Positions 45,726-60,446 of a stretch of 64,000 nt of DNA are shown here, piece after piece (position 1 is the stretch's first letter; every line of letters starts with the position of its first letter). The stretch covers positions 4,985,694-5,049,693 of the forward strand of contig OY282378.1 in the NCBI GenBank assembly GCA_958295835.1, written 5' to 3'. The stretch is from an uncultured Gammaproteobacteria bacterium (GTDB lineage: Bacteria; Pseudomonadota; Gammaproteobacteria; HK1). A program made the translations under genes and the position numbers. Under the pieces are notes generated by a model. That model made no database searches, was not told the origin of the DNA, and saw only the letters and a program-made list of their open reading frames with translations.

Positions 45726-46562
45726 TCACGGCCCGAGCCCCAGCAGGTGCTCCACCATCCTGCGGGGGATGTCGACGCCGGTGGTGTCGATGCTGTTCCT
45801 GAACTCCATCGTGTAGTTCACCTCGTTGACGAGGAGACCGTCCGGCGTCTCGAAGAGGTCGACGGCCAGGATCCCCCCGCCCACCGCCCGGGCCGCGGCC
45901 AGCGAGACCGCCGCCAGCTCGCCGGTCACCGGGCAGTTCGAGGCTTGCGCGCCACGCGCGGTATTGGTGATCCAGTGCGCCGACCCGCGGTAGATGGCGG
46001 CGATGCACTCGTCGCCGACGACGAAGCTGCGGATGTCGCGTCCGTGCTTCTCGACGTACTCCTGGATGTAGAAGATCGAGTGGTGGTAGCTGCCGAGGAT
46101 GGTCTTGTGCTCCAGGATCGACTCGGCCGCGTCCCGATCGTTGACCTTGGAGAGCAGGCGGCCCCAGGAGCCGACAGCGGGCTTGAGCACCGCGGGATAG
46201 CCGACGGCGTCCAGCGCTTCGAGCGCGGACGCCTCGGTGAACGCGACCCTGACCTCCGGCTGCGCAACCCCGGCCTCGTGGAGCGCGAGCGAGGTGAGCA
46301 GCTTGTCGCCGCAGACGTTGGCCACCCGGTAGCTGTTCACGCACCGGATCCCCAGGCTTTCGAGCAGGCGCAGCCCGTGCAGCGCACGGGAGTGGTTGAT
46401 GCAGCGCTCCAGCACCACGTCGACGTCGGGGCCGCTCTTCAGATCGAAGACCATCTTCCGGTCGTCGAGCATGGCCACCTCCACCCCGCCATGCTTCGCG
46501 AGCTCGCCGAGCAGGAGCTTCTCCTCCTTCCGAATCAGGGAATGGAGGAAGCCGACCCTCAC
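45726..46562 (-). CDS. lysX: LysX-like ATP-grasp ligase
   Basis: A 278-residue RimK/LysX ATP-grasp protein: [60 protein letters not shown] and [20 protein letters not shown]. The last is the LysX-type metal/substrate loop. LysX attaches the amino group of 2-aminoadipate or glutamate to the C-terminal Glu side chain of the carrier LysW. Its GTG start overlaps the lysW stop (GTGA). No LysZ, LysY, LysJ or LysK partner is seen, so lysine synthesis is unlikely to be complete here; a specialised use such as non-proteinogenic amino-acid synthesis is possible. Confidence 0.82.
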
Positions 46563-47098: not shown

Positions 47099-49828
47099 AT
47101 GCAAACAGTCACTCGGCGGGAATTCCTCGGCGCCACGGCGCTCACCGGCATCGGCGTGCTCACCGCCGACGGCGCCTGGGCGCTCAACAAGCTGGAGCCG
47201 CTCTTCGATACGCTCGACCAGGAGTATCCCTATCGTGCCTGGGAAGATCTCTACCGCGACGAGTTCACCTGGGACCACGTGGGATACGCCGCTCACTGCA
47301 TCAACTGCGTCGGCAACTGCGCGTTCCGGATCTATGTGAAGGACGGCATCGTGCTGCGCGAAGAGCAGCTCGCCGAGTATCCGCAGATCAATCCGGACAC
47401 CCCCGACGCCAACCCCCGCGGCTGCCAGAAGGGCGCCATCCACTCGGCGGCGATGTACGAAGGCGACCGCCTGCGCTACCCGATGAAGCGCGCCGGCGAA
47501 CGCGGCGAGGGCAGGTGGCAGCGCATCTCGTGGGACCAGGCGACGACCGAGATCGCCGACAGGATCGTCGACATCTTCGAGAAGTACGGCCCCGGCGCCC
47601 TGATGACCCACACCGGCAGCGGCAACCTGAGCCACGTCCGCCTCGCCGCGCCCTATCGCCTGGCTTCGCTGCTCGGCGGCGTCCAGCTCGACATCTTCAC
47701 CGACGTCGGAGACCTCAACACGGGCGCCCACCTCGCCTACGGCGATCCGATCCAGAGCTTCACCTCCGACGCGTGGTTCGACGCCGACTACATCATGATG
47801 ACCCTGTTCAACCCCAACGCGACCCGCATCCCCGACGCCCACTACATCTGGGAAGCCCGCTACAACGGCGCCCGCATCGTCTCCATCGCGCCGGACTACA
47901 ACCCCAGCTCGATCCACGCCGACCTGTGGATCCCCATCCAGCCGGGCGCGGACCCCTTCTTCAACATGTCGCTGGCCCAGGTCATCCTCTCCGAGGCGCT
48001 GCACGACACTGCGTTCGTCAAGGAGCAGACCGACCTGACGCTGCTGGTGCGCGACGACAACGGCAAGCTGCTGCGCCAGTCGGATCTCGCCGCCGACGGC
48101 AAGGCCGACGTGTTCTACATGTGGGACACGGTTGGCAACCGGGCGGTCGAAGCCCCGGGCTCGATGGGCAGCGAGACCAAATCGATCGCGCTCGGTGCGG
48201 TCGACCCGGCGCTGGAGGGCAGCTTCACCGTCGAGGGCATCGCGGTGCAGCCGGCTTTCGTGCACATGCGGGCCGAGGCGATGAAGTATCCACCCGAAGC
48301 GACGCGGGAGGTCACCGGCGTGCATCCCGACGTGGTGCGCACCGAGGCGCGCCACATCGCCAGAGCGAAGAAGGCCGTGTTCATGACCGGCTTCAACATC
48401 GGCCGCTACATCAACGGCATCCACACCGGCTGGGCGCAGGTGCTGGTGCTGGCGCTGACCGGCCACGGCGGGCCGCGCGGCGGACTCGACACCTCATGGA
48501 TCGAGTGGGCGCACCCCAAGCTGCTGTCCCTCGCGCTCGCCGAGTTCACCAAGCTCCCCCGCCTCGAACCCGGCGGCCTCGGCGAGTTCATGCGCGGCGA
48601 GATGGTCCACGAGGCGCGCCGGCACTTCGACCCGGACAAGCTCAAGGCGCGCGTCGGCTTCAACGTCGATGAAATGATGGAGATGATCCACGAGAGCATC
48701 GACAAGCAGGGCATGCCCTACCACGGACACGTCAAGGGCCTGATCTCGATCGCCGACAACAAGTTCCGCCGCAACAAGGGTGCCCACAAGTACCGCGAGC
48801 GCATCCTGAACGAGGTCAGCGAGCTGTTCGTCAACGTCAACGTGCGCATGGACTCGACCGCTATGTGGGCCGATTACCTGCTGCCCGCGGCGAGCCATTA
48901 CGAGGCCTGGGACCTGCGCTCGGTCGGCTACCACCGGTTCGTCAACGTGTTCACCGCGCCGGTCGACCCCGTCGGCGAAGCCCTGCCCGACTGGGACATC
49001 ATGGCGCTGCTCACCGGGAAGATCCAGGAACGCGCCAGGGTGCGGGGCGCTGGCGCCTACGAAGACGGATCGGTCACCCGCAACCTCGACACCATCCACG
49101 ACGACTTCACCATGGGCGGCACCATCAACACCGCCTACGACGCGACCAGGTGGCTGGTGGACAACAGCCCGGAGATCGACGGCACCCTCGAGGAAGGCGC
49201 CAAACGCGGGTTCTTCGTGATGAACGAGAAGGCGGGCGGCCACTCGACGCTGCGGCCCGACGCGGTCTACAACCCCTTCGAGCATCAGGTGGTCGACAAG
49301 ACGCCCTATCCGACGCTGTCGGGGCGCATCACCTTCTACTGCGACCACGACCGCTACATGAAGCTCGGCGCCCGGGTACCGACCGCGCGCCGGCACGCCG
49401 GGAAGGAAGCCTCCAACTACCCGTTGCACTTCTACACCCCGCACACGCGCTGGGGCATCCATTCGAACTGGCGTTCGAACAAGTTCATGATGCGCCTGCA
49501 GCGCGGCGAGCCCAACGTCTACATCAACCCGCGGCTTGCCGCTGCCCGCAGCATCGCCGACGGCGACAAGGTGCGGGTGTTCAACGGCATCGGAGAATTC
49601 TTCGCCCAGGCCAAGTTCTATCCCAGCCTTCCCGAGGATGCGCTGATGATGGAGCACGGCTGGGAGCCCTACCAGTACGACGAGCAGAAGCCGCTCAACA
49701 ACGTCACCGCGACGCTGCTGCAGCCGCTGGAGCTGGTCGGCGACTGGGGGCACCTGAAGTTCACCTTGTGGAAGTGGAACGCCAACCAGCTCGCTCACGA
49801 GAGCAGCGTCGACGTCGAGAGGGTGTAA
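47099..49828 (+). CDS. Type II DMSO-reductase-family molybdoenzyme, catalytic (alpha) subunit
   Basis: A 909-residue protein with a twin-arginine signal (TRREFLGATALTGIGVLTAD) for folded export. The Fe-S motif H66-x3-C70-x3-C74 ... C109 (AHCINCVGNCAF and PRGCQKGA) uses His as first ligand, the mark of type II enzymes such as NarG, SerA, ClrA, DdhA and EbdA. Molybdopterin-binding segments run throughout (HTGSGNLSHVRLAAPYRLAS, SVGYHRFVNVF, TPHTRWGIHSNWRSN). The C-terminal QPLELVGDWGHL resembles SerA/DdhA/EbdA. Substrate cannot be deduced: selenate, chlorate, dimethyl sulfide and hydrocarbon-hydroxylating enzymes share this architecture. The ATG at 47099 sits next to the signal; a GTG at 47057 is in frame. 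Confidence 0.9.
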   Translation: MQTVTRREFLGATALTGIGVLTADGAWALNKLEPLFDTLDQEYPYRAWEDLYRDEFTWDHVGYAAHCINCVGNCAFRIYVKDGIVLREEQLAEYPQINPDTPDANPRGCQKGAIHSAAMYEGDRLRYPMKRAGERGEGRWQRISWDQATTEIADRIVDIFEKYGPGALMTHTGSGNLSHVRLAAPYRLASLLGGVQLDIFTDVGDLNTGAHLAYGDPIQSFTSDAWFDADYIMMTLFNPNATRIPDAHYIWEARYNGARIVSIAPDYNPSSIHADLWIPIQPGADPFFNMSLAQVILSEALHDTAFVKEQTDLTLLVRDDNGKLLRQSDLAADGKADVFYMWDTVGNRAVEAPGSMGSETKSIALGAVDPALEGSFTVEGIAVQPAFVHMRAEAMKYPPEATREVTGVHPDVVRTEARHIARAKKAVFMTGFNIGRYINGIHTGWAQVLVLALTGHGGPRGGLDTSWIEWAHPKLLSLALAEFTKLPRLEPGGLGEFMRGEMVHEARRHFDPDKLKARVGFNVDEMMEMIHESIDKQGMPYHGHVKGLISIADNKFRRNKGAHKYRERILNEVSELFVNVNVRMDSTAMWADYLLPAASHYEAWDLRSVGYHRFVNVFTAPVDPVGEALPDWDIMALLTGKIQERARVRGAGAYEDGSVTRNLDTIHDDFTMGGTINTAYDATRWLVDNSPEIDGTLEEGAKRGFFVMNEKAGGHSTLRPDAVYNPFEHQVVDKTPYPTLSGRITFYCDHDRYMKLGARVPTARRHAGKEASNYPLHFYTPHTRWGIHSNWRSNKFMMRLQRGEPNVYINPRLAAARSIADGDKVRVFNGIGEFFAQAKFYPSLPEDALMMEHGWEPYQYDEQKPLNNVTATLLQPLELVGDWGHLKFTLWKWNANQLAHESSVDVERV

Positions 49829-49889: not shown

Positions 49890-50876
49890 ATGGCAACCGG
49901 AGTCAAACGGCAGCTCAGCATGGTGATGGACCTCAACAAGTGCATCGGCTGCCATACCTGCACGTCGGCCTGCAAGATGCAGTGGACCAATCGCAACGGC
50001 CGGGAATACATGTACTGGAACAACGTCGAGACCCGGCCGGGCCGCGGCTATCCGCGCGACTTCGAGTCGATGGGCGGGGGTTTCGACGAAGGAGGCAACC
50101 TCCGCCTCGGCCGCGAGCCCAGCGCGGAGGACTACGGCATCCCATGGGAGTACAACTTCGAAGAAAGCCTGATGACCGGCACCGACCCCTGGATGCGGCC
50201 CAACGTCAAGCCGACCTGGGGCGCGAACTGGGACGAGGACGAAGGCACCGGCGACTACCCCAACAGCTACTACTTCTACCTGCCGCGGATCTGCAACCAC
50301 TGCGACGATCCGGCCTGCCTCGCCGCGTGCTCGCGCAACGCCATCTACAAGCGCCAGGAAGACGGCATCGTGCTGGTGGACCAGGAACGCTGCCGGGGCT
50401 ACCGCTACTGCGTCACCGCCTGCCCCTACAAGAAGGTCTATTTCAACGAGCGCATCTCGAAATCGGAGAAGTGCATCTTCTGCTATCCGCGCATCGAGAA
50501 GGGCCTGGCCATGGCCTGCGCGCGCCAATGCGTGGGGCGCATCCGCTGGGTGGGCTATCGCGACGACGAGGCCGGTCCGATCCATCTGCTGGTGGAGAAG
50601 TACAAGGTCGCCCTGCCCCTGCACCCCGAATGGGGCACCAGGCCGAACGTGTTCTACGTGCCGCCGACCTCGCCCCCCCGGCTCGGCGCCGACCGCAACG
50701 CCGAGACCGAATCGCGCATCCCCGTCGCCTATCTCGAAGAGCTGTTCGGCGACGGCGTGCGCCAGGCGTTCGAGACCATCGCGGCCGAGCGTGCGAAGAA
50801 GGCGAGCGGTGAAGCGTCGGAGCTGATGGACACGCTCATCGGCTTCAAGCACCACGAGATGTTCAAGCTGAGCTGA
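49890..50876 (+). CDS. Type II molybdoenzyme iron-sulfur (beta) subunit
   Basis: A 328-residue four-cluster ferredoxin subunit. Clusters are KCIGCHTCTSACKMQW (C18, C21, C24, C28), CNHCDDPACLAACSRN, CRGYRYCVTACPYKK and KCIFCYPRIEKG...CARQC. In the third motif the second cysteine is replaced by Tyr (C-x2-Y-x2-C), the substitution that makes this cluster [3Fe-4S] in type II beta subunits (Trp or Tyr in relatives). It wires the alpha subunit to the haem subunit. No signal peptide of its own: it is expected to be exported with alpha by the Tat system. Confidence 0.92.
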   Translation: MATGVKRQLSMVMDLNKCIGCHTCTSACKMQWTNRNGREYMYWNNVETRPGRGYPRDFESMGGGFDEGGNLRLGREPSAEDYGIPWEYNFEESLMTGTDPWMRPNVKPTWGANWDEDEGTGDYPNSYYFYLPRICNHCDDPACLAACSRNAIYKRQEDGIVLVDQERCRGYRYCVTACPYKKVYFNERISKSEKCIFCYPRIEKGLAMACARQCVGRIRWVGYRDDEAGPIHLLVEKYKVALPLHPEWGTRPNVFYVPPTSPPRLGADRNAETESRIPVAYLEELFGDGVRQAFETIAAERAKKASGEASELMDTLIGFKHHEMFKLS

Positions 50877-50946: not shown

Positions 50947-51660
50947 ATGACCGATCCGGTGACCCGCTGCCGCGCACGTTCCGCCGGCTACCAGCTACTC
51001 TCGATCGCGTTCGCGCATCCGATCTCCGAGATTACCGCGCAGCTCGAAGACGGGCGGTTCCAGTCGGCGTTCGCGGGACACATGGAGACGGTCTTCGGCC
51101 GCATTCCTCCGCTGCCCCGGCTCACGCTCGCCCCGTCCTCCTTCGGGAGCGCCTATATCGCGCTCTTCGAGCGCGGGACACGGGGGCGGCCGCCGGTGCC
51201 GCTGTGTACCGGCGAGTACATGCAGCTACTCGACGGACGGCCACGGCCCGAGGTGCTGCTCGACCATGTCCGGTTCTACCGCCATTTCGGCCTCAAGGTG
51301 CGCGGCCACGGCGAGGACAACGAGCTGCCCGACCATCTGTGCTGCCAGCTCGAGGCGATGGCCTGGCTCGGCGAGCTCGAAGCACGCGCCCGCCGGGAGG
51401 GGAAGCGCACCGGCGGCCTGGAGCGCGCGCAGGCCGACTTCCTCGACAAGCTGCTGATCCCGTTTCTCGATCGATTCGTGCCCACCCTCGAGCTCGAGGT
51501 TTCGCGCCGCGGCGGCGACCCCCTGTTCGCCGCACTCGGCGGGGCCGCGGCCTCGCTCACCACTTGGCACGCGCACGAGCTCGGCGCCGCTCTGCCGGCG
51601 CCGCCGGTGCATGCGCTTGCCGACAAACCGTTGACCGAAGAACAGAACCTCTGGGGATGA
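50947..51660 (+). CDS. TorD/NarJ-like assembly chaperone (delta)
   Basis: A 237-residue all-helical cytosolic chaperone: RSAGYQLLSIAFAHPISEIT, GSAYIALFERGTRGRPPVPL and HFGLKVRGHGEDNELPDHLC are the DmsD/TorD/DdhD-type motifs. It inserts or proofreads the molybdenum cofactor in the alpha subunit before Tat export. The start at 50947 (GGGAG 7 bases upstream) is preferred to the GTG at 50881. The following gene overlaps by ATGA. Confidence 0.85.
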   Translation: MTDPVTRCRARSAGYQLLSIAFAHPISEITAQLEDGRFQSAFAGHMETVFGRIPPLPRLTLAPSSFGSAYIALFERGTRGRPPVPLCTGEYMQLLDGRPRPEVLLDHVRFYRHFGLKVRGHGEDNELPDHLCCQLEAMAWLGELEARARREGKRTGGLERAQADFLDKLLIPFLDRFVPTLELEVSRRGGDPLFAALGGAAASLTTWHAHELGAALPAPPVHALADKPLTEEQNLWG

Positions 51661-52451
51661 GACCGATGCGGACAATCGTTCCGGGTTTGCTGCTGGTGGC
51701 CATGATCGGCTGGAACGCCGGATTCGCCGCCGAAGTTCCACGCGGAAAGGCCAACGTGCTCGACCTCGCGGCCGGCGACACGATACCGGTGACCATCATC
51801 CCGCGAGGGGTGCATCTGCGGATCGCCAATGATCCGATCGACGACATCTGGGAGCGTGTCCCCGAATACCAGATGTGGCTGACGCCCGCGCCGATCTGGC
51901 ACCCATCGGTGGCGCTGCGGCAGGAGGCCGGCGGGACGGGGATGCCGCTGTATTTCAGCGCGGCCAGCGACGGGGAGCGGCTGTACGTCAAGCTGCGCTG
52001 GGCGGACGCGACCGCCGATCGGGTCACGGGGCTCGACCGCTTCCGCGACGGCGCCGCGGTGCAGTTCGCGCTGAAAGGGGCCGATGTCACGCCGCATCTC
52101 ATGGGCGTCACCGGAGCGCCCGTGAACATCTGGTACTGGAAAGCCGACGACGACTCGGCCGAGAACCTTGCGGCGGGTGGACCCGGCTCGACCACCCGGC
52201 TCGACGATCAGCCGCTCGGCGCGGCCAGCGCCCACGGCAAGGCGGCGTTCGCTCCGGAAGACCAGTGGGTGGTGGTGATGTCGCGTGCGCTCGGGGCCGA
52301 AGGGATGCACATGGCGCGCCTCGACCCCGCCGGCGACCCTCAGCCGCTCGCCTTCGCGGTCTGGCAGGGCGCCGACGGCGAGCGCGACGGCCACAAGAAC
52401 GCGAGCCCCGGCTGGATCCTGCTCGATCTGTCGCCGCTCGCGGGGAGCTGA
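51657..52451 (+). CDS. Periplasmic haem b (gamma) subunit, ethylbenzene-dehydrogenase-related
   Basis: A 264-residue secreted protein (signal peptide IVPGLLLVAMIGWNAGFAA). It matches the EbdC/DdhC/SerC haem-binding domain: DDIWERVPEYQMWLTPAP, PLYFSAASDGERLYVKLRW and GAPVNIWYWKADDD. The haem iron in this family has Met and Lys ligands; M113-region and K-containing motifs are compatible but not assigned. It passes electrons between the Fe-S subunit and a periplasmic carrier. The ATG at 51657 overlaps the chaperone stop; a second ATG lies at 51666. Confidence 0.85.
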   Translation: MRPMRTIVPGLLLVAMIGWNAGFAAEVPRGKANVLDLAAGDTIPVTIIPRGVHLRIANDPIDDIWERVPEYQMWLTPAPIWHPSVALRQEAGGTGMPLYFSAASDGERLYVKLRWADATADRVTGLDRFRDGAAVQFALKGADVTPHLMGVTGAPVNIWYWKADDDSAENLAAGGPGSTTRLDDQPLGAASAHGKAAFAPEDQWVVVMSRALGAEGMHMARLDPAGDPQPLAFAVWQGADGERDGHKNASPGWILLDLSPLAGS

Positions 52452-52459
52452 GCCCGGCC

Positions 52460-53539
52460 ATGGCAAAGCCGAGGCCGGCCGTGATCGACTGCGGCCTCGG
52501 GCACGCCTGCACGTTCTGCAAGCTCGAGGACGACTGTGCGCTCGACAAGCCTGCGCACAACCGGCGCCTGATCGAGGACCGGTTGCAGGCGATCGGCGGC
52601 GTGATCCTGGTCCTCGCCAACAAGGGCGGGGTCGGCAAGAGCACCGTGGCCGCCAATCTCGCCGCATCGCTGGCGGCGCGGGGCCATCGCACCGCGCTCG
52701 CCGATGCCGACATCCACGGCCCCAACGCCGCCCAGTTCTTCGGCCAGCAGGGAGAGCACACCACGGTCGGTGGCCGGGGCATCCAACCTCGCCGGTACCG
52801 CTTCCACGATCACGCGGGCGAGCTTCCGATCGGCTCGCTCGGCTTCTTCCTCGACGGACCCGACGTGCCGGTGGTCTGGCGCGACGCCTACAAGTTCGAC
52901 TACGTTCACCACCTGATCGGCTCCTACGACTGGGGCACGCTCGACTTCCTGGTGATCGACATGCCCCCCGGGACCGGCAACGAATTGATCACGCTCTGCG
53001 ATCTGCTCGAAGGGGTCGAGACCCGCGCGCTCCTCGTGACCACGCCGCAGGCGGTGGCGCTGCTCGACACCCTCAAGGCGGCCCGCTTCTGCCACGAACG
53101 CGGCCTGCCGGTGGCCGGGGTGGTCGAGAACATGGCCGGCATGTCGTGTCCGCACTGCGACGGCCATATCGAGATGTTCCCGCGCGATCCGCTGTCGGAT
53201 CGACTCGCGCAGAGCGGCATCGAGACCCTGGTTCGACTGCCCTTCTCCCCGGCGCTGGCGTTTGCCTCCGACGCGGGTCGGCCGGCGGTCGACGACGGCG
53301 ACCGGCAAGGCGATGCAGCGGGACGGTTCGCCGCGCTGGCTGATCGCATGGTCGCGGCGTTCGCCCGGGAGCAGTCGGGCGCGATGTCCGGTGAGCTGGT
53401 CGAATCGCTCGGCGTCGGCGCTCAGATGGAGTCCATCGAGGCCGCCCTCGCCACCCGGCCCGACATCGACAAGGCGGCGGTTCGTGGCGAGATCCAGGCG
53501 TTGATCGACGGTGAGGTCGAGCGTCTGGGGCATGGATGA
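52460..53539 (+). CDS. Mrp/NBP35-like P-loop ATPase
   Basis: A 359-residue MinD-superfamily ATPase. The deviant Walker A is NKGGVGKSTV (54-63), Walker B FLVIDMPPGTG and switch ADADIHGPN; a conserved CPHC pair (GMSCPHCDGH) can bind an Fe-S cluster. An N-terminal cysteine cluster, C11-x5-C17-x2-C20-x5-C26, recalls the Fe-S-binding N-terminus of NBP35 proteins. This suggests a dedicated iron-sulfur carrier for the molybdoenzyme's five clusters, an uncommon addition to type II operons. A C-terminal extension of about 70 residues (from AREQSGAMSGEL) follows the ATPase. Confidence 0.85.
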   Translation: MAKPRPAVIDCGLGHACTFCKLEDDCALDKPAHNRRLIEDRLQAIGGVILVLANKGGVGKSTVAANLAASLAARGHRTALADADIHGPNAAQFFGQQGEHTTVGGRGIQPRRYRFHDHAGELPIGSLGFFLDGPDVPVVWRDAYKFDYVHHLIGSYDWGTLDFLVIDMPPGTGNELITLCDLLEGVETRALLVTTPQAVALLDTLKAARFCHERGLPVAGVVENMAGMSCPHCDGHIEMFPRDPLSDRLAQSGIETLVRLPFSPALAFASDAGRPAVDDGDRQGDAAGRFAALADRMVAAFAREQSGAMSGELVESLGVGAQMESIEAALATRPDIDKAAVRGEIQALIDGEVERLGHG

Positions 53540-53714: not shown

Positions 53715-55577
53715 GTGCCGGACGATAACGTCCCGTCGCGGCGCCGCTTCCTCACCGGTCGCATCCGTGGCGAGCAGCCGATCTGGCGCCCGGTGCCGAC
53801 CACCGGCGCTTCCCCGAACGACGTGTTGTGGGGGGTCTGGTGCGACGGTCCCGATCACGCGCTGATCGTCGGTGACGGTGGCGCGATTCACCGGCTGAAG
53901 GACGGCGTCTGGCGGCGCGAGGAATCGGGGGTCAAGGAGCCGCTGCACGCTGTCGCCGGGTTCGGCGACGGCAACGCTGGCAATGCCCCCGGCATTGCCG
54001 CTGTTGCCGTCGGCTGGATGGGGGTCATCGTGCATTGGGACGGCGCCGCCTGGCGCCGGCTTGGCGGCGGCACCGTCGATCCGATGACCAGGCGCTTCGC
54101 CTCGATCCGCGCGAACACGCCGCTCTTCGGCCTGTGGGCGTCGTCGCCTGCCGATGTCTGGGCCGTCGGCGACGAGGGCCGGGTGTGCCGATTCGACGGA
54201 TCCGCATGGCACGAGGCCGATTGCCCGACCGACGCTCACCTGCGCGCGGTCCTGAGGGCACCCGACGGCACGCTCATGGTCGCCGGCGCCCAGGGAGTCG
54301 TGCTGACCTTCCGCGACGGCACGTGGTCGCGGATGGCGACGGACACGTCGAGCCATCTGACCGGGATGCACGTCGAGCCCGACGGCACGGTCTATGCGGT
54401 CGGCGGTCATTTCAACGCGCGGCGAAACGGCTTCACCGGCACCCTCCTGCGCCTGCGCGGGGGAACCTGGTCCCCGCTCGCCTCCGACGAGGCGCTGCCG
54501 CGGCTGCGCGCGGTCGGGCGGATCGGTGACGCGGTGGTCGCGGTCGGCGATCACGGCACGATCGTGCGGGTCGCGGGCGATTCGATCGTGGCCGAGCGAG
54601 TCGACACCCGCCGCGATCTCTACGCGCTGGCCGCGGTGGGCGGCCAGCGCGCCTTGTGCGTGGGTGACGGCGGAGGCGTCATCGAAAGGGCGACGGTCTC
54701 GGCAACCGCCCTGCCCTCCCTCGAGGCCGACGCCGCTCCGATCGGCCGCGCCAGCCCTTGGGAGTGCGTCGATGGATGCCCGACCGATCGAGTGCTGTGG
54801 TCGCTGTGGGGAGACGACGACCAAATCTTCGCGGTCGGCGACGAGGGCGCCATCGTCACCTTCGACGGGAAGCGGTGGCTCGCCCATGCCGCACCCGCGC
54901 CGCTGCATCTGCACGGCGTGTGGGGCCGACGCGCCGATCAGGTCTACGCGGTGGGCGACTTCGCAGCCGTCATCGAGTTCGACGGCTCGCGCTGGCGCGA
55001 GATCCACCGTCTGGGTGTCGACATCTCGGCTGTCGCGGTCGCAGGCTTCGGGCCGCACGACCTGTTCGTCGTCGGCGACGAAGGCCTGATCCTGCGCTCG
55101 GACGGCGTCGGCTTCGAGCGTATCGACGGGCGCACCCGCGACGCGCTCTATTCGATATGGGGCTACGACGCCGATCATGTGCTCGCGGTCGGCGACTTCG
55201 GCGCCATCCTGCGCTGGAACGGCCGCGAGTGGAACAGCTTCTCCGCCGGCACCGAGGCGTTCCTCTACGGTGTCTGCGGCCGGGCGCTCGACGACGTCGT
55301 GGTGGTCGGCCTCTCGGGCACCACGGCGCATTTCGACGGCCGGCGCTGGTCGCGACGCGCCACCGGCACCACCGCGGACCTGCTCGGGGTGGCGCCGCTC
55401 GACGACACGCGATGGATCGCGGTCGGCACCCGGGGGACGGCTCTCGTCTGGGATGGCGACGCCTGGATCGAAGAGGACACCGGCACCGATGCCGGCCTGC
55501 GCGCCGTCCGGGTCGCCGTGGACGGGACCGCCTACGCGGTGGGGGACGCCGGAACGGTGCGCAAGCGTCTGCCGTGA
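53715..55577 (+). CDS. 14-repeat beta-propeller protein
   Basis: About 620 residues made of at least 14 repeats of about 40 residues with the pattern xxxAVGDxGxIxxFDGxxW (examples: VWAVGDEGRVCRFDGSAW, IFAVGDEGAIVTFDGKRW, VYAVGDFAAVIEFDGSRW, VLAVGDFGAILRWNGREW). Fourteen repeats would fill two seven-bladed propellers. A short N-terminus has SRRRFLTGRIRGEQPI, twin-arginine-like but with no hydrophobic stretch, so export is uncertain. It follows the ATPase gene on the same strand and may be a scaffold or assembly factor. Start uncertain: GTG at 53715 chosen because upstream codons look non-coding, though the frame opens at 53604. Confidence 0.8.
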   Translation: MPDDNVPSRRRFLTGRIRGEQPIWRPVPTTGASPNDVLWGVWCDGPDHALIVGDGGAIHRLKDGVWRREESGVKEPLHAVAGFGDGNAGNAPGIAAVAVGWMGVIVHWDGAAWRRLGGGTVDPMTRRFASIRANTPLFGLWASSPADVWAVGDEGRVCRFDGSAWHEADCPTDAHLRAVLRAPDGTLMVAGAQGVVLTFRDGTWSRMATDTSSHLTGMHVEPDGTVYAVGGHFNARRNGFTGTLLRLRGGTWSPLASDEALPRLRAVGRIGDAVVAVGDHGTIVRVAGDSIVAERVDTRRDLYALAAVGGQRALCVGDGGGVIERATVSATALPSLEADAAPIGRASPWECVDGCPTDRVLWSLWGDDDQIFAVGDEGAIVTFDGKRWLAHAAPAPLHLHGVWGRRADQVYAVGDFAAVIEFDGSRWREIHRLGVDISAVAVAGFGPHDLFVVGDEGLILRSDGVGFERIDGRTRDALYSIWGYDADHVLAVGDFGAILRWNGREWNSFSAGTEAFLYGVCGRALDDVVVVGLSGTTAHFDGRRWSRRATGTTADLLGVAPLDDTRWIAVGTRGTALVWDGDAWIEEDTGTDAGLRAVRVAVDGTAYAVGDAGTVRKRLP

Positions 55578-55751: not shown

Positions 55752-56195
55752 ATGATTCAACGATTGCTCACCGGATTGCTCACCGTCGCCGCCCTGGCCG
55801 GCGTCGTCGCCGTCCCGCTCCCCGCCGCGGACCTCGCCGTCGAGGTACGCGGCATTCGCTCCGGGGACGGACGTCTCTACGTCGCGGTGCACGCCCCCGA
55901 GACGAAGGACAAGTTCCCCGCCACGTCCGGCACGATCGCAGCGGTCCAGCAAAGTGCGAACGTCGGTGCGCTTCGTTTCATCCTGCGCGACCTGCCCCCC
56001 GGGCGGTACGCGGTGAACGCCTTCCATGACGAGAACGACAACGGGGAGCTCGACACCAACCTCGTGGGGATCCCGTCCGAAGGCTACGGCTTCGCCAACG
56101 ATCCCGATTCGTCCTTCGGGCCTCCCGACTTCGAGGCCGCCGCGGTGAACGTCGGCGACGCAGCCGAGGTCGCCGTCATGACCCTGCGCTACTGA
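55752..56195 (+). CDS. Secreted DUF2141 protein
   Basis: A 147-residue protein with a signal peptide (LLTGLLTVAALAGVVAVPLPA, cleavage near PAA) and the DUF2141 core: LAVEVRGIRSGDGRLYVAVH, RFILRDLPPGRYAVNAFHDE and NGELDTNLVGIPSEGYGFAN. The family is a small extracytoplasmic beta-sandwich of unknown role. AGGAG precedes the ATG. It is 11 bases upstream of the carotenoid-oxygenase-like gene and coupled with it. Confidence 0.85.
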   Translation: MIQRLLTGLLTVAALAGVVAVPLPAADLAVEVRGIRSGDGRLYVAVHAPETKDKFPATSGTIAAVQQSANVGALRFILRDLPPGRYAVNAFHDENDNGELDTNLVGIPSEGYGFANDPDSSFGPPDFEAAAVNVGDAAEVAVMTLRY

Positions 56196-56206
56196 GGAGG
56201 CTTCCG

Positions 56207-57724
56207 ATGGCTCACCAGACATGGAAACGCCGATCCTTCCTGCGCACGGCAGGGCTTGCCGGCCTCGCTCCGCTGTTTCCGCTGCACGCGGCGGCGGGTG
56301 GAAGCGGCTGGTCGGAGAGCTTCGCCCGAGCTCTCGAGAAGAATCCCATGCTGCTCGGCTGGCGTAGCGTCCGCGCCGATCGGCTCCGCTGCGAAGCACG
56401 CATCGAGGGCCGCCTGCCGGCGGAGCTTCAAGGGATCTTCTACCGCAACGGACCGGCGGTCTACCAACGCTTCGGGGTCCGCTACCGGCACTGGTTCGAG
56501 GGCGACGGCATGGTGCAGGCCTGTCGTTTCGACGGCCGCGGCGTCTCGCACCACGCCCGCGTACTGGAGACTCCGAAGCTGGTGCGCGAGACCTCGGCGC
56601 AGCGCCGCCTCTTCTCCGGATTCGCAACCTCCGCGGGCGGCGGCGCCGGCCCACGCCGTCCCGATGACCTCAACGTCGCCAACACCTCCGTACTCGACCA
56701 CCACGGCGAGCTGCTCGCGCTGTGGGAAGGCGGCTCGGCGAGCGTGCTCGATCGCGAGACACTTGCCTGGCAGGGCTTCAAGGTATGGGGCGAGTCCCTG
56801 GACGGCCTGCCCTTCACCGCCCACCCCAAGGTCGAGTCCGACGGCACGCTTTGGGCGTTCGGCTACAGCTTCGCGCCGGTCCCGGCGCTCCTGCTCTATC
56901 ACATCGCCCCGGACGGCACGGTTCGGAGGGCGCATCGCATCGACGTGGGTGCGCCCGGCATGGTGCACGACTTCGTCGTCACCGCCCGGCACCTGGTCAT
57001 CGTCATTCCGCCTCTGGTGTTCGCGCCGGCCGCGGGCGACGAGGTGCTGCTCGACGCCCTGTCCTGGCAGCCCGCGCTGGGCTCTCGCGTGCTCGTGGTG
57101 GACAAGGACGATTTCGACACCCGGCGCTGGTACCAGCTCCCGGCCGGATTCGGCTTTCACCACGGCAACGGGTGGGAGGACGACAGCGGGGTCATCCGCT
57201 TCGACCACTGCGTCGCGACCGATGCCTCCCTGGTGACGGACAGAATGCGCGCCATCATGCGCGGCGAGCTCGGGGAGGCGACACCGGAACGCTATGCCCG
57301 CTTCACACTCCGTCCGAACGGGAGCGCAGAGGTCGAGGCCACGGGCGAGGAAGCCGAGTTTCCCCGCATCGCGCCCTCGGTGGCGGGACGACGCAACCGC
57401 TACGTCTATACCCTCGGGGCAGCATCCGTGGAATCAACCGGGTGGCATCTGCGCCGGGTCGTCAAGCGGGACCTGGATGCCGGATCCGTTGAAGCGTTCG
57501 ACTACGGGCCGGGGGTGATTCCGGAGGAGCACGTCTTCGTACCGAAGCAGGCCCCGCGCAGCGAGGACGATGGGTGGCTGATCGGTCCCTACCTCGACTA
57601 CGTACGGGAGCTGAGCGGCATCGCGATCTTCGATGCCCGGCACGTCGCCGACGGGCCGATGGCGCGCGCCTGGCTCGACTACCCCCTCCCAATCGCTCTG
57701 CACGGCCATTTCTCGCCGGCCTGA
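56207..57724 (+). CDS. Tat-exported carotenoid-cleavage-oxygenase-fold protein
   Basis: A 505-residue RPE65/CCO-family protein. KRRSFLRTAGLAGLAPLFPL is a twin-arginine signal. Propeller iron ligands are H206 (FTAHPKVE), H254 (GMVHDFVV), H318 or H319 (GFGFHHGNG) and H499 (ALHGHF). The family cleaves double bonds in carotenoids, stilbenes or phenylpropenes with Fe(II) and O2. Bacterial members are usually cytosolic; periplasmic export via Tat in an operon with DUF2141, beside a periplasmic molybdoenzyme, is unusual. The substrate is unknown. Confidence 0.88.
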   Translation: MAHQTWKRRSFLRTAGLAGLAPLFPLHAAAGGSGWSESFARALEKNPMLLGWRSVRADRLRCEARIEGRLPAELQGIFYRNGPAVYQRFGVRYRHWFEGDGMVQACRFDGRGVSHHARVLETPKLVRETSAQRRLFSGFATSAGGGAGPRRPDDLNVANTSVLDHHGELLALWEGGSASVLDRETLAWQGFKVWGESLDGLPFTAHPKVESDGTLWAFGYSFAPVPALLLYHIAPDGTVRRAHRIDVGAPGMVHDFVVTARHLVIVIPPLVFAPAAGDEVLLDALSWQPALGSRVLVVDKDDFDTRRWYQLPAGFGFHHGNGWEDDSGVIRFDHCVATDASLVTDRMRAIMRGELGEATPERYARFTLRPNGSAEVEATGEEAEFPRIAPSVAGRRNRYVYTLGAASVESTGWHLRRVVKRDLDAGSVEAFDYGPGVIPEEHVFVPKQAPRSEDDGWLIGPYLDYVRELSGIAIFDARHVADGPMARAWLDYPLPIALHGHFSPA

Positions 57725-58064: not shown

Positions 58065-60446
58065 ATGAGGCATTCACTGCGCGATCTGCTGCTCGGCCAC
58101 GAAGACTGGCTGATTTACCGCGTCATCGATTACGCCAAGGCGAACGACTACTCGCAGTACACGCCCACCCTGGTCAGCGCCTGGCGGGAGTCCGTGGTGG
58201 GGCTTCGCGACGAGCTGGCCCGGGCGCTCGACGAGCACCCGGGGCTGCTGCCGATGCCCGCAGACCATGACTACTGTGCCGATCCCTATACGGCGTTCGC
58301 CATCGGCTCGGCGAGACGCCACCGCGCCCGCGGCGTCACCCTCGCCCTGTTCCTCGGGCTGACCAAGTTCTTCCGCCTCACCTTCCTCGATCTCGTCGAC
58401 AAGGAGCATTGGCCGGAACCCGAGGCCCGCCGGGCGCGCGAGCTCATCGCGCGTTACTTCGACCGTATCGAGCTGGCCATCAGCATCGACTGGGCATCGC
58501 TCGGCGAGAACGAGAAGATCGCCGAGGTCCAGGACAAGAATCGTGCTCTGGCAAACGAGAAGGACAAGTACCTCACCATCTTCGAGAGCCTCGAGGATCC
58601 GGTCTTCGTCCTCGACGAGAGGAACGGGATCGAGAACATGAACGGCGCCGCCTGGCGCCTGTTCGGGGTCGAGAACGACCCCGGCGAGCTCTACTACCGC
58701 CCTGAAGGCGCAAGCGCGGCCCTCGAGGCGGTGACCTCGCGCCTCGATCCGTCGAGCTTGATCGACGGCGCCTCCCTGGCGTTGCAGACGTCGGCGGGCG
58801 AGAGCTTCTTCGACGTCCGCCGCCGCGACATCCTCGACATCTGCGACAAGTACGCCGGCTCGGTCGTCATTCTCAACGACGTCACCACCCACAAGCACGC
58901 TCTGCGCGCCGCCGAGGAAGCGAACCGCGCCAAGTCGGCCTTCCTGTCCACCATGACCCACGAGCTGCGCACCCCGCTGAACGGCGTGCTCGGCGCCATG
59001 CGCCTGATCCGCGACGAGGGCCTGACCGACGCCCAGAACGAGTTCGCCGACACCATCGAACGTTCGGGAGAGCGGCTGCTCGGGGTGATCAACAATGTGC
59101 TCGACTACAGCCGCATCGAGGCCGGCCGCATCGAGGTCGCGCGCGCACCCTTCGTGCTGCCGGAGATGCTCGACGGGGTCCTCGCCATCGTCCGTCCGCG
59201 CGCCATCGAATCCGGGGTCCATCTGACCCTGGATTGCATGGCCCCGCACGATGCGCATCGGCTCGGCGATGCCGGCAAGATCCAGCAGGTGCTGCTCAAC
59301 CTGGTCGGCAACGCGATGAAGTTTTCGCCGCGAGGGCGCGTCACGGTCAACGTCCGGCGGGCGCACGGACGCGATGGACGGCTTCGCTTCGAGGTCGTCG
59401 ATGACGGCACGGGCGTGGACGAAGCGGCGCTCCCCCGGTTGTTCGAACCGTTCACGCAGATCCACCCCCACACCACCGACCGAGGCCAGGGCGCCGGACT
59501 CGGCCTCGCCATATCGCGGGCGCTGGTGACCGGGATGGGCGGGGAGATCGGCGCCGAACGACGCCGGGAGCGCGGCAGCCGTTTCTGGTTCGAGCTCGAT
59601 CTGCCGCCCGCCGCGGCGCCGGCGCGTTGCGAGGTGGCGCCGCCTCCGGACATCAGCAGGCAATCAGCGCGCACCATCCTGATGGTGGAGGACGACGAGG
59701 TGAACCGCGTCGTCGGCAAGGCACTGCTCGAACGCCGGGGCCATCGGGTGCTCGTCGCCGCCACCGGCATGGCCGCGATCCGGATGGCGCGCGACCATCG
59801 GGTCGACGTCGTGCTGATGGATATCCGTCTGCCGGACATCGACGGCTTCGAGGCCGCAAGACGCATCCGGACCCTGTACGGGGAAACGTTGCAACGCAGC
59901 CAACCGCCGATCATCGCTCTGACCGCGCAGGTCGAGCCATCGGATGCGACCGCTTGCGAAGCCGCCGGGATCGACGACCTCGTCGTCAAGCCCTTCTCGC
60001 CGGAAGACTTGTGCCGCCGGATCGAATTGCTGCCCGGGGGCGGGACTTCGCAGTCCGCCGCCGCTTCCACCGGCGAGGACGCGGGGGACTGGCTCGATCC
60101 GCGCATACTCGCCGATCACTTCAGCGCCCTCGGCCCCGGGCGTACCGCGCGGATACTGAAAGCCTTCGAGACGAACACCGGGCAGGTGCTGGCGGCTCTC
60201 GCCAACCCCGGCGCCGACGGCGGGAAGCTCGTGGACCGCGCTCATCGGCTGGCCGGCTCGGCGGCAGCCCTGGGCTTGCCGAGGCTGCACTCCCTCGCCG
60301 TCGATCTCGAACGTGCGGCGCGCAACGGCGCCCGTGAGCTGGACACCCTGTCGGTGCTGATGCCCGCGGCCATCGAGGTGAGTCAGCGGCACATCGACGC
60401 CTACTGGTCGTCGCTCTGCGGCGATGCGACCGCATCCAGCATGTAG
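58065..60446 (+). CDS. Hybrid histidine kinase (PAS-HisKA-HATPase-REC-Hpt)
   Basis: A 793-residue cytosolic hybrid kinase with no transmembrane segments. Domain order: a helical N-terminus (about 1-145), a coiled segment and PAS-like domain (about 165-275), HisKA with H299 in STMTHELRTPLNG, HATPase (NLVGNAMKF, FEVVDDGTGV, GAGLGLAIS), REC with D586 in VVLMDIRLPDIDG, and a C-terminal Hpt with H727 in RAHRLAGSAAALG. This four-step phosphorelay layout is that of TorS/ArcB. The absence of a membrane sensor means the helical N-terminus or PAS must sense an internal signal. Convergent with and overlapping the OmpR-type regulator gene by 46 bases. Confidence 0.9.
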   Translation: MRHSLRDLLLGHEDWLIYRVIDYAKANDYSQYTPTLVSAWRESVVGLRDELARALDEHPGLLPMPADHDYCADPYTAFAIGSARRHRARGVTLALFLGLTKFFRLTFLDLVDKEHWPEPEARRARELIARYFDRIELAISIDWASLGENEKIAEVQDKNRALANEKDKYLTIFESLEDPVFVLDERNGIENMNGAAWRLFGVENDPGELYYRPEGASAALEAVTSRLDPSSLIDGASLALQTSAGESFFDVRRRDILDICDKYAGSVVILNDVTTHKHALRAAEEANRAKSAFLSTMTHELRTPLNGVLGAMRLIRDEGLTDAQNEFADTIERSGERLLGVINNVLDYSRIEAGRIEVARAPFVLPEMLDGVLAIVRPRAIESGVHLTLDCMAPHDAHRLGDAGKIQQVLLNLVGNAMKFSPRGRVTVNVRRAHGRDGRLRFEVVDDGTGVDEAALPRLFEPFTQIHPHTTDRGQGAGLGLAISRALVTGMGGEIGAERRRERGSRFWFELDLPPAAAPARCEVAPPPDISRQSARTILMVEDDEVNRVVGKALLERRGHRVLVAATGMAAIRMARDHRVDVVLMDIRLPDIDGFEAARRIRTLYGETLQRSQPPIIALTAQVEPSDATACEAAGIDDLVVKPFSPEDLCRRIELLPGGGTSQSAAASTGEDAGDWLDPRILADHFSALGPGRTARILKAFETNTGQVLAALANPGADGGKLVDRAHRLAGSAAALGLPRLHSLAVDLERAARNGARELDTLSVLMPAAIEVSQRHIDAYWSSLCGDATASSM

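Follow-up and report, generated by a model that had tools for sequence, protein, structure and literature searches.

The open reading frame at 53715-55577 of the window (the whole stretch of 64,000 nucleotides that was analysed) encodes a protein of 620 residues with the predicted fold of a double seven-bladed propeller, and its gene is strongly associated with a single clade of operons for type II molybdoenzymes, where it lies beside the gene of an iron-sulfur carrier ATPase. As it travels with this one particular ATPase in many proteobacteria, the protein is probably a dedicated assembly helper for the enzyme; that it is, more precisely, a cytosolic assembly factor dedicated to this clade and an adaptor partnering the ATPase has, in our judgement, about an even chance of being right.

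Judged by its family models, the operon encodes an enzyme of the type II DMSO-reductase family; of its four components, three score above the NCBIfam cut-offs and the chaperone below (Table 1). A search with the alpha subunit found 63 loci in named genomes, and in 61 of them the relatives of this subunit are 63-92% identical. Among the members of the clade is the alpha subunit of Stutzerimonas chloritidismutans AW-1 (L089), 64% identical to that of the window, near which lie genes for a chlorite dismutase (PF06778) and a cytochrome c (L089:6938-8350); DMS dehydrogenase is perhaps another member, which is a guess of ours. ClrA of Ideonella and Alicycliphilus is 43% identical to the window's alpha subunit, and in the Alicycliphilus clr operon cyc and mobB stand at the place of the ATPase and propeller genes, neither of which is present. 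Two rather dissimilar alpha subunits (64% versus 43% identity to that of the window) are thus found near cld.

Table 1. Positions of the operon genes and of two segments of the propeller protein within the window
Feature	Position	Strand	Evidence and remarks
Alpha subunit, type II DMSO-reductase-family molybdoenzyme, Tat-type N-terminus	47099..49828	+	TIGR03479 1208 bits (cut-off 984.75); PF00384
Beta subunit, iron-sulfur protein	49890..50876	+	TIGR03478 565 bits (cut-off 480.7)
Delta, TorD/NarJ-like dedicated chaperone	50947..51660	+	PF02613 above cut-off; TIGR03482 120 bits, below cut-off 152.3
Gamma, haem b subunit	51657..52451	+	TIGR03477 188 bits (cut-off 169.85); PF09459
Mrp/NBP35-type Fe-S carrier ATPase, N-terminal C-x5-C-x2-C-x5-C, CPHC, helical tail	52460..53539	+	PF10609 215 bits
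Double seven-bladed propeller protein, 620 aa	53715..55577	+	Feature under study
N-terminal RRRFL...W element (residues 9-24)	53739..53786	+	Resembles NapF N-terminus
Blades 10-12 (residues 435-552)	55017..55370	+	Lowest column entropy of the propeller family

The preliminary description had placed a reading frame of highly regular repeats at these positions; it is open there, and alignment with the sister gene (81% identity), which has an ATG in the same column, indicates that the GTG at 53715 is the start, the mechanical open reading frame extending further upstream. The core of the repeat, [AVIC][VA]G[DWAGLT], is present 16 times in the protein, whereas 2000 shuffled versions contain it 2.9 times on average and never more than 9 times; of the 16 copies, two (286 and 307) fall between the regular ones, which are spaced by 39-40 residues in the C-terminal half and less uniformly in the N-terminal half. 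The AlphaFold2 model, built from 46 sequences (pLDDT 89.2, pTM 0.68), bears out the earlier count of 14 repeats forming two seven-bladed propellers: its strand list, as we read it, gives 14 blades, seven at about 20-331 and seven at about 347-620, and no other fold was found. In this model the protein is a double propeller of two closed rings, each apparently closed by one further strand (20-26 and 349-351), and pLDDT drops below 50 only at the N-terminus (1-16) and in the linker (332-345). With VIA-align 2, residues 346-620 align to seven-bladed propellers over about 270 residues (Z 31-33, rmsd 2.2-2.9), a comparison that barely tests the N-terminal ring, which is judged from the AlphaFold2 model alone. 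Double propellers such as AIP1 are among the whole-length Foldseek matches; their TM-scores are low (0.38 for 1nr0), which probably reflects a different orientation of the two rings.

Conservation is uneven along the protein, whose homologues, the sister apart, share 34-43% identity with it. The mean column entropy is 0.87-0.95 in blades 10-12, which hold 27 invariant columns, versus 1.14-1.54 in the remaining blades; blades 2 and 3 carry 10 and 9 invariant columns. The family has no cysteine that is common to all its members. Binding of an iron-sulfur cluster or haem by the propeller itself was rejected on this ground, and the propeller itself probably does not bind an Fe-S cluster.

No curated family covers the window protein, and no NCBIfam model made for the propeller family was found. 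Up to 0.1 it matches only Tectonin, CBM_5_12 and SGL, each below its cut-off; it matches neither PF14870 nor the Ycf48 model PRK13684 at 0.001, nor WD40 (PF00400) at the same threshold, and has no match to Fer4, the ferredoxin-type 4Fe-4S model. Among the 46 homologues, HVO_0234-like is matched by 31, PF14870 by 23 and WD40 at 0.001 by three, while in NCBIfam 22 match PRK13684 and 16 a glycosylhydrolase model, in both cases weakly. Of four homologues compared with the Pfam cut-offs, one (L087) just passes PF14870/PSII_BNR (30 of 27 bits). A PDB search with the family profile retrieves Ycf48 (5ojp/2xbg) at 1e-3, with TLAP2 and DOA1 scoring better, and Foldseek aligns Ycf48 (5ojr) over 296 columns with a TM-score of 0.75 by target length and an rmsd of 3.3.

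At the N-terminus, R9, R10 and W24 are invariant in all 46 aligned propeller sequences; each of the 46 carries RRx[FLI][FLI] with a tryptophan 15-21 residues further on, preceded by proline in 29. In the preliminary description, RRRFL was said to mimic a Tat motif in the absence of a hydrophobic core, and this is borne out, the core being absent or weak with one exception. The best 14-residue Kyte-Doolittle mean behind the propeller motif ranges from -0.9 to 1.06 (median -0.06; 47 of 48 loci scored), versus 0.91 to 1.66 (median 1.23; 61 of 63) behind the Tat motif of the alpha subunits; a single homologue (L069) overlaps the lower part of the alpha range, and both the sister and most homologues have no hydrophobic core after the double arginine. 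Generally, L069 excepted, the propeller N-terminus is devoid of a signal-peptide core; it runs straight into the first strand. An element of the NapF kind, with double arginine and PW, is found in the propeller family: among four NapF-like proteins from propeller-bearing genomes, three start with a similar RR...PW element. In that of Pelagibius (L156) the tryptophan follows the double arginine at 21 residues, the spacing seen most often in the propellers; two others (L155 and L158) have shorter versions, L158 with no residue between RR and FF, and the fourth (L157) has no clear element. As a counterpoint, the NapF-like element is short, and the double arginine of NapF is reportedly not essential in E. 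coli.

This N-terminus bears on where the protein works. It might leave the cytoplasm by Tat, alone or carried along, and serve the mature enzyme in the periplasm as a structural or electron-transfer partner, a reading that we consider improbable. Its twin-arginine motif would suit export, the core of L069 lies within the lower range of the alpha subunits, and Ycf48, to whose models 23 of 46 (Pfam) and 22 of 46 (NCBIfam) homologues have weak matches, is lumenal. Ycf48 is also lipidated (PMC8038367). However, the median hydropathy of -0.06 behind the motif compares with 1.23 for the alpha subunits, the N-terminus leads into the first strand with W24 conserved, and the family has no cysteine conserved throughout; on hydropathy, a periplasmic accessory of the enzyme was not retained as first choice. 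Of the two roles offered in the preliminary description, maturation scaffold is the one that fits best, whereas action in the periplasm is not supported, given an N-terminus that in general has no signal-peptide core and looks like that of NapF. A second possibility is that RRxFF, by imitating the alpha subunit's Tat signal, keeps the delta chaperone or the translocase occupied as long as the enzyme is unfinished, with the ATPase as an incidental partner. This proofreading or targeting role in Tat export is in line with the presence of RRx[FLI][FLI], generally without a core, in all 46 propeller sequences, with the true Tat-type N-terminus of the alpha subunit and with the similar element in NapF. 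We nonetheless regard it as unlikely, since the tightest genetic tie of the propeller is to the ATPase (the pair moves jointly, and the ATPase tail is missing where the propeller is missing) and since the delta chaperone persists in the six loci that have no propeller.

The link between the propeller gene and this clade of molybdoenzyme operons is strong and directly observed. In 48 of the 63 alpha loci the ATPase and propeller genes are adjacent, in six the ATPase gene stands alone and in nine neither is found. Six of these nine end within about 1 kb past alpha (L062, L085, L089, L112, L114 and L115); in L116 the alpha match is only 340 residues long, with 7.5 kb behind it, in L117 the alpha subunit is barely related (26% over 215 residues), and in L109 (alpha 46% identical) neither gene lies in the 5.2 kb downstream and the genome has no propeller. 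For the presence in other type II operons that the preliminary description had put forward as a check, the association was seen in one clade; the Alicycliphilus clr operon has neither gene, nor does L109 in the 5.2 kb downstream. Full-length propeller genes occur in 45 of the 48 loci, those of L077, L083 and L108 being cut or disrupted. In 46 of the 48 loci the ATPase-propeller pair comes after gamma, whereas L071 and L107 have it upstream of alpha, which indicates that the two genes move as a unit. They overlap by 4 bases in 12 of 45 pairs, with a median gap of 22, and are separated by 175 bases in the window. The delta chaperone gene is present in all six propeller-less loci (L057-L060, L068 and L104), and no propeller was found elsewhere in the six genomes concerned; for L104, where just about 0.6 kb lies behind the ATPase gene, the absence rests on this whole-genome search. 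As these six operons retain the enzyme and the ATPase, the propeller is not needed everywhere.

Several of these loci have features of their own. In L083 (Oceanimonas sp. CHS3-5) about 5 kb separates beta from delta (L083:11802-16822), compared with well under 0.3 kb in related loci, and is a probable insertion. One Thiorhodococcus MAG has two operons of different subclades (L056 and L091), each with its own propeller. A Marinobacter operon (L087:7308-9733) adjoins a cytochrome c gene and alcohol-dehydrogenase-like and esterase genes, which resemble the glutathione-dependent formaldehyde pair. Within the window itself, a LysX/RimK-like ATP-grasp ligase is encoded upstream and divergently (45726-46562, minus strand), with 91% identity in the sister contig (L055) and no tblastn match at 1e-4 in the other alpha loci. 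Downstream of the propeller lie genes for a DUF2141 protein and a carotenoid-oxygenase-like (RPE65) protein (55752-57724), the latter with a Tat signal that is possible but scores below cut-off; considered as members of the module, they probably fall outside it, tblastn at 1e-4 finding them only in the sister contig among the 63 loci. The segment 18001-22000 has a G+C content of 0.47-0.52, against 0.61-0.73 in the rest of the window, and is perhaps acquired DNA.

Just downstream of the operon, 58065-60446 encodes a hybrid histidine kinase whose best NCBIfam model, TorS, is below cut-off. Relatives with 45-49% identity follow the operon in L056-L060, and more remote ones with about 32-36% lie divergently upstream in 15 alphaproteobacterial loci; the kinase is probably a dedicated sensor. 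Propellers are common in sensing and scaffolding, and with a related kinase beside many such operons the window protein could be a cytosolic stabiliser, regulator or sensor for the operon with no part in Fe-S insertion. This we hold to be quite unlikely, as the kinase adjoins an operon that has the propeller (L056) as well as six that lack it (L057-L060, L068 and L104), and the presence of the propeller is shared with the tail of the ATPase.

The neighbour itself was described at first as a molybdoenzyme assembly ATPase. That it is an ATPase stands, but by its motifs it is an Fe-S carrier of the Mrp/NBP35 type and not specific to molybdenum: it has a deviant Walker A motif (NKGGVGKST, N54-T62, invariant in 55 of 55), a CXXC pair and a PF10609 score above cut-off, and its best PDB match is CFD1 (6g2g, 1.9e-37). 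C11, C17, C20, C26, C230 and C233 are likewise invariant in 55 of 55. The first four, spaced C-x5-C-x2-C-x5-C, may be the counterpart of the N-terminal four-cysteine cluster site of the NBP35 branch, which in yeast NBP35 has the spacing Cx13Cx2Cx5C. The genome of the window encodes another Mrp that is 35% identical, and the ATPase of the operon therefore looks dedicated.

The ATPase has a C-terminal helical tail (about residues 304-359), modelled as helices 285-316, 319-331 and 338-357 with a weak spot at 306-310. Counted from the start position of the window's gene, the ATPase has 298-315 residues in the six propeller-less loci and 349-372 beside a propeller. From CPxC onward there are at least 120 residues in 44 of 44 propeller-bearing loci and at most 84 in six of six propeller-less ones (Fisher 6e-8, uncorrected for kinship); the four propeller-bearing loci that the CPxC pattern does not match stand outside this count, and their ATPases, at 350-364 residues, are long too. 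Among the 54 ATPase-bearing loci, none has a tail without a propeller or a propeller without a tail. In a tree of 60 alpha subunits, 55 of them of known state (quick method, LG+G4, no bootstrap), the states of tail and propeller both change twice and in the same two lineages, one among the Chromatiaceae and the other Rhodospira; a sign test on two events gives p = 0.5, two being too few for significance. As all six propeller-less ATPases are without the tail, in two independent lineages, the pattern suggests that the tail docks on the propeller, although a single deletion spanning the junction of the two genes could have taken both together.

Joint presence extends to whole genomes. The family of Marinobacter piscensis (L087) was covered by 151 genomes drawn from a larger group; the propeller profile (E up to 1e-20) is found in seven of them and the alpha subunit (E up to 1e-150) in the identical seven, one of which (G847) has both in pieces. 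Among 398 genomes of the phylum, only the window's own (G000) has an alpha subunit above the family cut-off, and it is also the only one with the propeller profile (E up to 1e-25). Within the window's family (17 genomes), both proteins are full length only in G000 and G003, and G008 has a weak partial propeller match. A single propeller sequence is matched at 0.001 by 62 of 369 genomes of the class, at full length only by G000, the next-best match covering 173 residues at 37%. Plasmids gave two weak partial matches, and a pattern scan of a collection of genome contigs with the propeller itself gave no relative, probably because the patterns were too strict for homologues that, beyond the sister, are only 34-43% identical. 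Such joint presence can also come from transfer of the operon as a block.

Taking the propeller as an adaptor of the ATPase in enzyme assembly, we infer a cytosolic location, a docking tail, a client and an order of steps as follows. The CPHC pair of the ATPase would bind one [4Fe-4S] cluster, and its four N-terminal cysteines perhaps another; its helical C-terminal tail would dock on the double propeller, which in turn, through blades 10-12 and the N-terminal RRxFF...W element, would hold either alpha or beta in the apo form, or else the delta chaperone bound to it. Clusters would then be inserted ahead of the molybdenum cofactor and ahead of Tat export of the folded complex. Set against this, the propeller fold by itself names no partner, as propellers bind many things.

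How complex iron-sulfur molybdoenzymes acquire their clusters ahead of Tat export is largely an open question, and few bacterial Mrp/NBP35 ATPases have been studied (PMC6345978). Here one such ATPase has a constant neighbour and a constant likely client, and the lineages without propeller and tail amount to an experiment done by nature, so that its partner, docking site and client can be tested directly. As the AW-1 alpha subunit, near chlorite dismutase, belongs to the clade, these factors may matter for moving such chlorate reductases into other hosts. Among the best-matching titles and abstract openings of the open-licence literature, no description of the ATPase-propeller pair was found, which does not imply its absence from print, and the main texts of PMC9751292 and PMC10609526 do not contain the word 'propeller'; a dedicated double-propeller assembly helper of this kind seems not to have been studied before.

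Ycf48/HCF136 is the characterised protein that recurs in the NCBIfam, Pfam, PDB and Foldseek comparisons, without ranking first in Pfam or PDB. It resembles the window protein in being a seven-bladed propeller with similar repeats and an assembly factor for an enzyme with a metal cofactor: it assists the assembly of photosystem II and, while this goes on, sits at the place of the manganese cluster (PMC10403576). However, Ycf48 is a single propeller, exported, with an unrelated client, whereas the window protein is double and has no signal peptide. Membership in Ycf48/PSII_BNR was set aside, the window protein having no model match at 0.001 and two propellers, and the sister and most homologues no signal-peptide core.

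In comparison, the cytosolic iron-sulfur assembly (CIA) pathway likewise unites an NBP35-type P-loop ATPase with a seven-bladed propeller, and the best PDB match of the operon's ATPase is one of its proteins, CFD1. CIA1 is a seven-bladed propeller that acts downstream of NBP35 and helps deliver clusters to apo-proteins, as outlined in PMC12674569, but it is a single WD40 propeller that receives clusters via Nar1. The Pfam and PDB searches do not support homology to WD40/CIA1 by sequence, and CIA1 is absent among the Foldseek and VIA-align 2 matches listed, which excludes nothing; the resemblance is one of parts, not of descent. MrpORP and other extended Mrp/NBP35 proteins similarly combine an Mrp ATPase with an added part (PMC6345978), which is a Di-Nase domain there and a helical tail with a separate propeller protein here.

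NapF offers a further likeness as a cytosolic maturation factor of a Tat-exported molybdoenzyme with an N-terminal RR...PW element. According to PMC10609526 it is cytosolic, and R. sphaeroides NapA needs it in vitro for its Fe-S cluster, but it is absent from some nap operons and only marginal in E. coli. NapF differs in being a polyferredoxin, whereas the window protein is a propeller with no 4Fe-4S motifs and no cysteine conserved throughout its family. There is some room, well short of an even chance, for a bacterial two-part Fe-S delivery system for one Tat-exported molybdoenzyme clade, in which the tail of an NBP35-type ATPase would plug into a double-propeller targeting adaptor on the plan of the eukaryotic NBP35 and CIA1 but with a separate evolution, and a NapF-like N-terminal tag would provide the link to the Tat substrate. 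The best reading of the comparison as a whole may be that the window protein, although it falls outside both families as tested, works like Ycf48 or like NBP35 together with CIA1.
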